Below are positions 26,628-29,622 of a DNA stretch of 29,622 nt, in pieces. Location: positions 1-29,622 of the IMG/VR virus record IMGVR_UViG_3300003885_000029, one strand, 5' to 3'. Under the pieces are notes generated by a model. It saw only the letters and a program-made list of their open reading frames with translations. It made no database searches and was not told where the DNA came from. The position numbers and the translations under genes were made by a program. Numbering within the stretch: position 1 is the stretch's first letter; every line of letters begins with the position of its first letter. This stretch comes from a virus.

Positions 26628-28631
26628 TCATTCTACCGGCTCCGCGTAGTACTGTAAAGCCACGCCCTCCGATTCGACATAATCCCAGAACCGGGGCCAG
26701 TCGATCGTATCCAGTTCAAAATACTGTACGCAGATATTCCAGGCCATGACCTCAGTGCCTGCGTAGCTATACCCGAGCAAGTCCCATAACTCATTTTTTG
26801 CGCCTCCCCGCCGGTGCCAGTAGTACACCTTGTTCCCCTTGTCGTCGATTTTCTCCCGCCGGGTCTCGACGGTGAGCTCTTTTAGCTGCTTGTCGGAGAC
26901 ATCCACCGGCGCGTTAAAATGGTAAACCCGTTGCTCCCCGGCACCCTCGACCCACTCGCGGCGCAATACCGGCGCCATACGATCCTTGTAATGGTCCACT
27001 AGAATCCTGTAGCCGACGGTCCCGGACTGCGTCTCGAACTGGGCGAACTCCTTTATCGCCTGATTTTTAGCCGGACGGTCGCGCCCGAGTATGGGGAACA
27101 CCCCGGACGAATAGTCCGCGCAAAACGTTGTAACCGTATCATTAGCGTAGCCGGCGTCGATAAACGTAAATGAGACGGGGTACACCCGGCCGTCATCGGC
27201 GGTAAATGTGGTCTCCTCGATAAGCTCCCGCAATCGCCCCCACACGGGTGACGTTAGCTCGCTGCAATCGTCGTCAGCTGCTGCAGTCTCGTACCGCTCA
27301 TACGTTATCAGGTATGGCTTGGCATCGCGCACGATACCAAACACGGCGACGGCCAGGTCCTCCTTTTGGACGTCGACCATGCACTGTAGATACAGAATTT
27401 TAGATCCGGAATGCTCGGCGGCATACTCGTTCGGGATCTCGCCCATACGATACGCCGATCGGCGATGCGCCGACACACTAACAAAAGTAACGCGGGAGCC
27501 CATGGGCTCGAACGGCCAGGCTAGCACGTTATTATAAAAAACCTGGTATCGGGGGATGTCTGTCACTTTGTTAGTCGTCGGGTCGAAACAGTCCAGGTAC
27601 TGTAAAACATTTTTCCACCAGGGCCGCATACCGACCGGGGAATACAGCGCCGGCAGATGGTACGACCTAATGTTCCGCTCGACAGGCTTTGCCGTGGGCT
27701 CCCAGGCCGCGCCATTATCTGGGCTGTATAGGAATTCCTTGTCGTGCTCGTGGTGGCCGTGCCCGCAATTCTGGCAGCAATAGCGAACCGACTCAGTGTC
27801 GAGAACGCCGTCCGACAGCTCCCAGACAAACCCCCCTATCACGCCTGTTTTTTTATCGCGAGAGGACCAGCGCAGCTCCTGGGGAAAACCACACGCGCGG
27901 CACCTGATCCTGTATTTTCGCTGATCGCCCCGGAGGTAATTGCGGTATATCACGCTGCTGGATTTGATAAGCGGGGTCGAGCCCCTGAAAATCTTCGCTC
28001 GCTCGGTGTAGCCGTCGGTCCGGGCATCGGTCAGAGCGTCGGGGTCGCCATCCTTGCCCACCACCAGCGGCCAGGCGTCGACCTCATCTTTCAGCATGAT
28101 GCAGATAGACCACATCCGCATTTTGTCCGCATTATTCGCCCCGTACGGGATCAGAAAAGCGCCCTTGTCAAATTGCAAATGATTTTTTGTTTTGCCCGTC
28201 TTGCGGGTGTTCCCCTCGTCACTCGACCTGATAATGTGGCCGAACCCGGATTGCTGGAACATGGGCAAGAAATTATTTTCGATGCGGGCCTGGGCCAGCT
28301 CCTTGTCAGCTGTAACGTACATCATAGGGAGCGTGCCGATGTGGGCCGCATAGTACAGGACGCCCGATTCCAGCAATGTCGAATATGTTATCTGCACGCC
28401 TTTCATCACGCTGACCTCGCGGACGGGGCTATCGATGTCGAAACAATCGACGATCTCGCGCATATAGGGGTTTACAGCGTAGCGGATGTACCCGGGGATT
28501 GACGTCACCGAAGCCGGCAAATAACGGTGTTCCTCGTTAAAATTGCTGGGCAATACGTGCACTACTGAGTCCACAACCGCGGCCGCTTCGTCGATCAGCC
28601 AGTCCGCCCCGATTCCATTTAGCTCAGGCAT
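26628..28631 (-). CDS. Terminase large subunit, lambda gpA family
   Basis: 667 aa. The ATPase domain shows LPASVTSIPGYIRYAVNPYM, an atypical Walker A, VMKGVQITYST (Lys at the start of the loop, as in lambda gpA), and Walker B-like ICIMLKDEVDAW. Two CxxC pairs, CRACG and CQNCG, form a zinc-finger insertion. The C-terminal nuclease includes VSFTFIDAGYANDTV with the metal-binding Asp. It cuts the concatemer and drives DNA into the prohead. Its ATG at 28631 overlaps the small-terminase gene by 8 bp. Length equals that typical of gpA (641 aa) within a few percent. Confidence 0.94.
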   Translation of the reverse strand: MPELNGIGADWLIDEAAAVVDSVVHVLPSNFNEEHRYLPASVTSIPGYIRYAVNPYMREIVDCFDIDSPVREVSVMKGVQITYSTLLESGVLYYAAHIGTLPMMYVTADKELAQARIENNFLPMFQQSGFGHIIRSSDEGNTRKTGKTKNHLQFDKGAFLIPYGANNADKMRMWSICIMLKDEVDAWPLVVGKDGDPDALTDARTDGYTERAKIFRGSTPLIKSSSVIYRNYLRGDQRKYRIRCRACGFPQELRWSSRDKKTGVIGGFVWELSDGVLDTESVRYCCQNCGHGHHEHDKEFLYSPDNGAAWEPTAKPVERNIRSYHLPALYSPVGMRPWWKNVLQYLDCFDPTTNKVTDIPRYQVFYNNVLAWPFEPMGSRVTFVSVSAHRRSAYRMGEIPNEYAAEHSGSKILYLQCMVDVQKEDLAVAVFGIVRDAKPYLITYERYETAAADDDCSELTSPVWGRLRELIEETTFTADDGRVYPVSFTFIDAGYANDTVTTFCADYSSGVFPILGRDRPAKNQAIKEFAQFETQSGTVGYRILVDHYKDRMAPVLRREWVEGAGEQRVYHFNAPVDVSDKQLKELTVETRREKIDDKGNKVYYWHRRGGAKNELWDLLGYSYAGTEVMAWNICVQYFELDTIDWPRFWDYVESEGVALQYYAEPVE

Positions 28632-29544
28632 TTTTTAACGCTCGCGCCATCTTGACCTTGGCGGGCTTAATAAATGAGCCTATCTGATCGACGATAAATT
28701 TCTCGCACTCGTCAACCGCACGCCCTGCCTTACTCATGGCCACAACCCGGAGGGCTATCGTTTTGGCGCCGTCGGTCAATAGCTTCGTGTGTGCCGCGTT
28801 TATCTGATCAATCACACCGATTTTCACCAGCTCGCGGCTTACTAGCTCGCCCTTTGTGGTGGCGTTTTTTAGGCGCTTCTCGTTTATGTCTTCGATCTGT
28901 TTCGTCGCCTTGAGCCAGTCCAGGAACGCCACATCGGTTCCATATCTCTGGATTAGCTCACGGAGCGTCATGTCCGCGAATTTCTTTATGTCGTCGGGGA
29001 TCTCATGCAGGGTGGAGCCCGTCTCGGCGGGAGAGGTGGGGCTCGTGGTGTGCCGGGCGAGGGCTTCTTGCTTTTTCGTCTGGCGTTTTTTCTCAGTCCC
29101 GCCGAGTATGCGGGGCGGTGGTGGTGCGGGGGTTGGTCGTGCAGCTGCGGGGGTGGGCTTTGCCGGCCCGGGCGGCACCACCTGGCCCGCTTTGGCCGGC
29201 GCTGCAGGCTGTGCGACCCCCGTCGCTGTCATGGTGGCAAAAATCCTAGACGCCCTGGCGTAGCCAATAGACAGCCCCCTCGACACCGCCGAAATGGTAA
29301 AGTTGCCAGACTCCCGGCAATGCGCGACGGCGTGCTCATATAGCGGGTCCAGCCCTGTAGCGGCCCCCAATGTCTCAGGGTCAGCCCTCAATCTTAAATA
29401 CTCGACCGCGGCCGGGTGTGCCGCGTCTATGCGCCGCCCTACTATTGCAGGCTTTAAAACCGTAAGACAGGCCCTTGTAATAGCAGTAGCCGTAACCCCG
29501 GCCATCGTTGAAAACTCTACTCTTTTTACAAGTTTTTTAACCAT
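28624..29544 (-). CDS. Putative terminase small subunit with an FtsK gamma-like DNA-binding domain
   Basis: 306 aa; the ATG at 29544 has no Shine-Dalgarno. Residues 5-52 look like a helix-turn-helix of the phage small-terminase type (FSTMAGVTATAITRA ... RRIDAAHPAAVEYLR). Residues 66-110 closely resemble the C-terminal gamma domain of FtsK: DPLYEHAVAHC, then TISAVSRGLSIGYARASRIF and MTATGV. A Pro/Ala linker follows (111-150), and residues about 175-306 are helical (FADMTLRELIQRYGTDVAFL, ISDQ.. and VVAMSKAGRAVDECEKFI), as in small-terminase oligomerisation regions. It overlaps the large-subunit gene by 8 bp. The small-terminase role is by position and architecture; the gamma-like part is by clear motif resemblance. 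Confidence 0.75.
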   Translation of the reverse strand: MVKKLVKRVEFSTMAGVTATAITRACLTVLKPAIVGRRIDAAHPAAVEYLRLRADPETLGAATGLDPLYEHAVAHCRESGNFTISAVSRGLSIGYARASRIFATMTATGVAQPAAPAKAGQVVPPGPAKPTPAAARPTPAPPPPRILGGTEKKRQTKKQEALARHTTSPTSPAETGSTLHEIPDDIKKFADMTLRELIQRYGTDVAFLDWLKATKQIEDINEKRLKNATTKGELVSRELVKIGVIDQINAAHTKLLTDGAKTIALRVVAMSKAGRAVDECEKFIVDQIGSFIKPAKVKMARALKNA

Positions 29545-29551
29545 AGGAAGC

Positions 29552-29557
29552 AGTGTA
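29552..29557 (-). promoter_or_regulatory. Candidate late promoter -10 (extended) for the virion operon
   Basis: On the minus strand TGG-TACACT is an extended -10-like element ending 7 bases before the ATG at 29544. No -35 is evident. If used, the transcript would be essentially leaderless, which would agree with the missing Shine-Dalgarno. Low confidence. Confidence 0.3.
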
Positions 29558-29592: not shown

Positions 29593-29610
29593 TTTGACCG
29601 ATCGGTCAAA
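29593..29610. promoter_or_regulatory. Perfect 18-bp palindrome, candidate operator of the late operon
   Basis: TTTGACCGATCGGTCAAA reads the same on both strands, about 50 bp upstream of the small-terminase start. It contains TTGACC, a -35-like sequence, on each strand. Its symmetry suits a dimeric regulator such as a TetR-type protein or a phage repressor or activator. No other copy was noticed in the window. Confidence 0.55.
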
Positions 29611-29622
29611 ATTTGTGCGAGA

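Follow-up and report, generated by a model that had tools for sequence, protein, structure and literature searches.

An FtsK gamma domain inserted in the probable small terminase of a family of cos-packaging myophages

The window analyzed here, the whole 29,622-nt stretch of IMG/VR virus record IMGVR_UViG_3300003885_000029 (positions 1 to 29,622), encodes near one edge a 306-aa protein that raises the question of what a DNA-reading domain of the translocase FtsK does within a putative packaging protein. The original prediction, made from the sequence, was that residues 66 to 110 of this open reading frame (29,217–29,349, minus strand) share the core of the FtsK gamma domain, which reads the chromosome polarity sites called KOPS, and that the domain recognizes a phage-specific target, possibly the cos or pac site.

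An FtsK gamma domain in a probable small terminase

The gene for the protein, the domains that it encodes, and the gene that adjoins it are as follows.

28,624–29,544, minus strand: gene for the probable small terminase (TerS), a 306-aa protein that carries FtsK gamma as an insert (open reading frame, PF09397, adjoining TerL, full-length relatives beside TerL).
29,383–29,538, minus strand: N-terminal helix-turn-helix (HTH), MerR/gpNu1-like, residues 3–54 (pLDDT ~93–96, Foldseek, co-variation).
29,215–29,355, minus strand: FtsK gamma core, residues 64–110 (Pfam, with a match to residue 122 at 29,179; phmmer; AlphaFold2; Foldseek).
28,999–29,214, minus strand: linker, residues 111–182, Pro/Ala/Lys-rich and mostly disordered (pLDDT 40–57 over most of residues 111–180).
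28,627–28,998, minus strand: helical C-terminal domain, residues 183–306 (the most conserved part, dN/dS 0.05).
26,628–28,631, minus strand: large terminase (TerL) of the GpA type, ATPase plus nuclease (PF05876, 145.9 bits; PF20454, 105.3 bits).

Residues 66 to 122 form a genuine FtsK gamma domain. The Pfam profile PF09397 (FtsK_gamma) matches this region at 42.1 bits (cut-off 30.6; E 7e-11) and independently matches 30 of 32 family members at E ≤ 0.01, and phmmer matches the Pseudomonas aeruginosa FtsK gamma structures 2ve8 and 2j5o by sequence (E ~1e-8). In an AlphaFold2 model of TerS, made with no templates from an alignment of 32 sequences, three gamma helices (residues 69–79, 84–91, and 95–108) are predicted at a pLDDT of ~90. 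In the PDB, each of the 13 best Foldseek matches is an FtsK gamma chain (probability 1.00, rmsd ~0.8 Å; 50% identity over 48 columns), and the helical core superposes on KOPS-bound FtsK gamma (2ve9) with an rmsd of 0.8 Å. Profile search and structure prediction thus both bear out the gamma-like core. The winged helix that had also been predicted is upheld in its helical core, whereas the wing (residues ~111–125) has low confidence in the model.

As originally proposed, the gene very probably encodes a small terminase, specifically that of a lambda-type (GpA) cos myophage, because of its gene order, the GpA-type TerL that overlaps its stop, and the cos site just upstream. The terS gene lies directly upstream of the TerL gene, with an overlap of 8 bp, and the order is the same in relatives. 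Genes for a portal, a head protease, a major head protein, a tail sheath, and a tape measure are located nearby in the window, and the phage is therefore a myophage. The protein matches phrog_57 (terminase small subunit) weakly (E 0.038), and one distant relative carries the annotation terminase small subunit. None of the Pfam TerS models matches the 306-aa protein, for which PF09397 alone passes its cut-off; a search with the Pfam cut-offs likewise finds no RecA-like motor domain in the 306 aa. The whole protein is spanned by phrog_13700 (E 1e-82), whose PHROG label is FtsK/SpoIIIE-like, host takeover. This label looks wrong for the whole family, which would be better named small terminase on the basis of gene position and cos context.

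From its N terminus, the window TerS consists of the MerR/gpNu1-like HTH, gamma, the linker, and the helical C-terminal domain, and the TerL gene follows. The N-terminal 56 residues are modeled by AlphaFold2 as a MerR-class HTH (E-H-H-E-H), for which Foldseek returns MerR-class HTHs, lambda gpNu1 (1j9i), and other packaging-motor chains, all of them weak matches (E > 0.5). The C-terminal domain is common to gamma-bearing and gamma-less TerS proteins and is presumed to be the part for oligomerization and TerL docking.

Relatives of the protein are widespread beside TerL. With the single protein as query, no close relatives came up among viral contigs; with a two-sequence alignment as query, such relatives were recovered, and two scans placed 19 and then 46 viral loci beside TerL, some of them partial or gamma-less. 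Full-length relatives are also found immediately upstream of TerL in Shewanella phage SppYZU01 and next to TerL on a contig of a metagenome-assembled genome. The C-terminal domain occupies the same place in Vibrio, Acinetobacter, Pseudoalteromonas, Aeromonas, and Oceanospirillum phages, where most proteins have a similar N-terminal HTH and none has gamma. The comparison covered ~60 related phages, and ~39 gamma-bearing relatives were found; the final count of gamma presence omits L207, the truncated L211, and L003, L011, and L092. In the TerS of L207 (185–1033), the sequence VGRIRAKRILAEL is probably a gamma that has decayed or strongly diverged; every Pfam model missed it.

A conserved fold with changed contacts

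FtsK contacts KOPS through Asn, Arg, and Glu residues, which we take to be Asn1296, Arg1300, and Glu1303 of the Escherichia coli protein. The aligned residues of the window TerS had been given as A96, R100, and A103; this assignment is correct, and two of the three contacts are indeed not retained. The three contacts are all kept in three other phage gamma proteins (L005, L006, and L007), which could therefore still bind KOPS, and their loss may thus be a peculiarity of the terminases studied here. In more than 200 other phage records, gamma is found chiefly in genes that are labeled RdgC or recombination exonuclease.

Purifying selection acts on gamma: its dN/dS is 0.215, whereas the HTH has 0.17 and the C-terminal domain 0.05. 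D66 and R97 are invariant across 38 gamma sequences, and Lys or Arg is common at positions 81, 89, 92, 97, 100, and 106 on the DNA side, while the positions at which the domain varies most include 95, 96, 99, 100, and 103. This is the pattern to be expected of a domain whose fold was retained while its target changed or its base read-out was dropped.

We favor, with fair but limited confidence, the view that gamma serves as an accessory DNA contact in a cos-packaging TerS, where its DNA binding would follow from its fold and charge. The main rival is that gamma is a protein–protein or structural module, perhaps for TerL or for XerD-like or other host proteins, and that its DNA binding has been lost. 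FtsK gamma also binds XerD, and 5dcf is among the sequence and fold matches of the window domain; the variable base-contact positions, the wing without a confident model, and the insertion in a flexible linker would also suit such a module. Yet the basic positions are largely kept, and the hypervariable positions cluster where the recognition helix would face DNA, not on a different surface. We consider this rival unlikely.

The cos site and the part of TerS that probably reads it

Nine complete linear relatives (40.8–48.5 kb) have 15-nt terminal direct repeats (16 nt in one) that start with GTTTTGATTC, and about 20 contigs of the group start exactly at GTTTTGATTC, ~90 nt before terS. These termini are cos ends, since filled-in 5′ cohesive ends would give exactly such repeats; an assembler artefact that picks one short sequence in independent assemblies is not expected. 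The group packages unit lengths from cos and is not headful. The repeats adjoin a conserved CCTCGCACA block and paired motifs, 10–12 bp apart, that precede terS. The order of elements in relatives is AAAGGTACTGT, a 22–24-nt mostly G/C-rich stretch, the 15-nt end, CGCGC, and CCTCGCACAAA, followed by two short motifs 10–12 bp apart, a −10-like box, and terS. The spacing is reflected in the mean best match between repeats, which reaches 4.0 of 6 at offset 10 and 3.9 at offset 11, higher than in shuffled sequence (3.3, sd ~0.14).

Of the left end, the window has just the inner part, as it stops ~21 nt before the physical genome end (GTTTTGATTC...). Its elements are as follows.

29,612–29,622, minus strand: conserved cos-left block TCTCGCACAAA at the very edge of the window (alignment with the left ends of relatives).
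29,594–29,609, no strand assigned: perfect 16-bp palindrome TTGACCGATCGGTCAA, single copy, where relatives have the paired motifs.
29,552–29,557, minus strand: −10-like box TACACT between the cos elements and terS (sequence; TATAAT or TACACT at this place in many relatives).

The palindrome, located where relatives have a direct repeat, is a probable TerS site. At the right genome end (L039, L042, L043, L002:2243–2283, and others), the conserved AAAGGTACTGT is accompanied by the 22–24-nt stretch, which is often G/C-rich, partly self-complementary, and highly variable in sequence among phages; it is possibly a cosQ or a terminator. A G/C-rich dyad on this right side of cos was considered as a KOPS-like target of gamma and set aside as not gamma-specific, because it is also present in gamma-less phages.

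A similar site may exist in Oceanospirillum phage vB_OsaM_PD0307 (L016), in which an HNH gene separates terS from terL and which was published as a P1-type headful phage (PMC10132091). Its first ~100 nt, just upstream of terS, include TTTTGTTTCGCGCCTCCGACCCTCGCGCAAAG and are similar to the cos of the window group, so that it may be a cos phage despite that report.

If gamma, through retargeted recognition helices that bind a phage-specific element of cos, were the main reader of cos or pac and marked where packaging starts, then phages whose TerS lacks gamma should have a different cos. Such a role would be in keeping with a real DNA-reading fold, non-KOPS contacts, and the location of TerS beside cos. 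However, the same cos terminus is found with the gamma-less TerS proteins of L070, L117, L146, L212, L213, L293, L303, the complete genomes behind L328 and L330, and others. Gamma is therefore dispensable for this cos type, and the prediction that it reads cos or pac is not supported. On a TerL tree of 66 rows, in which the position of the window is weakly supported, gamma presence changes at least seven times, and at least five of these changes are forced by well-supported branches; judged from this tree, gamma was gained or lost at least five to seven times.

Variation in cos instead follows the N-terminal HTH, whose recognition helix co-varies with the paired repeats. These fall into two broad classes, and under HTH and repeat classes that were named after the data were seen, TTGC-type repeats accompany HTH helices that start with [NA]PS in 16 of 16 cases and other HTHs in 0 of 32. 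In independent tree contrasts, HTH and repeats change together in five of six supported pairs and in the opposite manner in none (p 0.0625, the lowest possible at that sample size), and the same contrasts reveal no link of the repeats with either the first contact residue of gamma or the presence of gamma. Because of this co-variation, the HTH is the candidate repeat reader, and it probably reads the cos-proximal repeats.

Individual pairs of phages illustrate how the gamma recognition helix varies while cos is constant, and the reverse. Between L019 and L023, gamma differs at 21 of 47 positions and the linker at 41 of 57, compared with 5 of 52 in the HTH and 1 of 123 in the C-terminal domain, and the repeats are the same. 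These otherwise near-identical terminases thus carry a swapped gamma-plus-linker cassette, indicating recent recombination inside terS; gamma and linker are exchanged together between phages. Between L188 and L201, both the HTH (28 of 52) and the repeats differ, with 5 of 123 changes in the C-terminal domain, and gamma changes less. The 12 nt of cosN-left, which separate the cohesive end from the CTCGCAC block, are identical in L002 and L024 and in L029 and L030 despite different gamma helices, and overall the gamma helix does not track this stretch (partial r 0.08, p 0.18).

With the HTH controlled for, a weak residual correlation of gamma with the repeats is left (partial r 0.15, p 0.003). 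Mantel tests against the repeats gave 0.33 for the HTH and 0.24 for gamma, but a control DNA stretch was correlated as well, so these tests are not decisive and the tree contrasts were used instead. All three elements (cos, HTH, and gamma) fit into 400 bp, so that physical linkage, like ancestry, accounts for part of every association. A part of TerS other than gamma most likely picks the packaging start, and we regard gamma as the main cos reader as quite improbable.

We give an equally small chance to the idea that gamma is a second, changeable DNA-reading head that checks a fast-changing tag outside cos, which would account for a contact surface that diversifies and a gamma-linker cassette that swaps while cos stays fixed. 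If so, packaging could tell a phage's own DNA from that of related phages or of cos-mimicking satellites. Very improbable is that gamma orients loading by reading KOPS-like polar sites spread over the DNA of phage or host, or that it brings about generalized transduction, as proposed for Bacillus phages with the same domain (PMC8190038): two of the three KOPS contacts are gone, the group packages unit lengths, and GGGNAGGG (KOPS) shows neither enrichment nor strand bias in the window (4 observed versus 5.65 expected, 2 per strand) or in four gamma-bearing and one gamma-less complete relatives. A search for strand-biased octamers in the window and five complete relatives also found no motif in common.

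In the accessory-contact model that we favor, the HTH would bind the paired short cos repeats just upstream of its own gene, and the conserved C-terminal domain would assemble TerS and dock the GpA-type TerL. Gamma would be an inserted, exchangeable DNA-binding module in the flexible linker that retains its fold and basic surface, has lost the KOPS read-out of FtsK, and does not set cos specificity. The module would most likely supply an additional DNA contact that is either sequence-relaxed or directed to a phage-specific site outside the conserved cos core.

Relation to known packaging proteins

FtsK_gamma has been described in the small terminase of Bacillus phages vB_BcM_Sam46 and Sam112 (Kazantseva et al. 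2021, PMC8190038), which weakens the earlier claim of a new way to mark packaging starts, although the terminase backbone here is different. In both systems the domain is fused to a small terminase with TerL adjoining. In Sam46/Sam112, gamma is N-terminal (residues 11–70), is joined to Terminase_2, and keeps host-like DNA-binding residues, in a headful SPP1-like phage (PMC8190038). In the window TerS, a gpNu1-like HTH precedes gamma and a different C-terminal domain follows it, the contacts of gamma have diverged, and packaging is of the cos type with a GpA TerL; Pfam finds no Terminase_2 match in this protein or in family members. A literature search found no gamma small terminase besides those of Sam46/Sam112, and FtsK goes unmentioned in a review of small terminases from 2022. 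The window family is separate from Sam46/Sam112 and much larger. What is new here is the cos-type setting, the many members, the repeated gain or loss of gamma, and the diverged contacts.

The closest parallel for cos recognition is lambda gpNu1 and cosB (lambda, 21, and N15), which share with the window group a GpA-type TerL, an N-terminal MerR-like HTH, and a cos beside terS. As in those phages, cosN is constant while the R-like repeats vary to match the recognition helix; lambda and 21 have cosQ and cosN in common and differ in R sites and recognition helix (PMC4669245). Unlike lambda, the window group has 15-nt ends and short paired repeats instead of R1–R3, and its TerS differs from gpNu1 in an unrelated C-terminal sequence and the extra gamma domain. 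Compared with FtsK/SpoIIIE gamma (PF09397; 2ve8, 2ve9, 2j5o), the helical core is alike in sequence and fold, but there is no motor domain, N/R/E has become A/R/A, and confidence in the wing is low. Other phage gamma fusions (annotated RdgC/recombination exonuclease and FtsK-like genes beside RecT) likewise use gamma as a portable module, which in L005, L006, and L007 differs from the window domain in the kept contacts noted above.

Gamma is thus best read as a fast-changing, accessory, retargeted DNA-binding insert. Because natural pairs with and without gamma exist and cos has been mapped, its role in a packaging protein can be tested. A reader of host chromosome polarity has been adopted by cos-type packaging proteins across a whole family, separately from the single published case.
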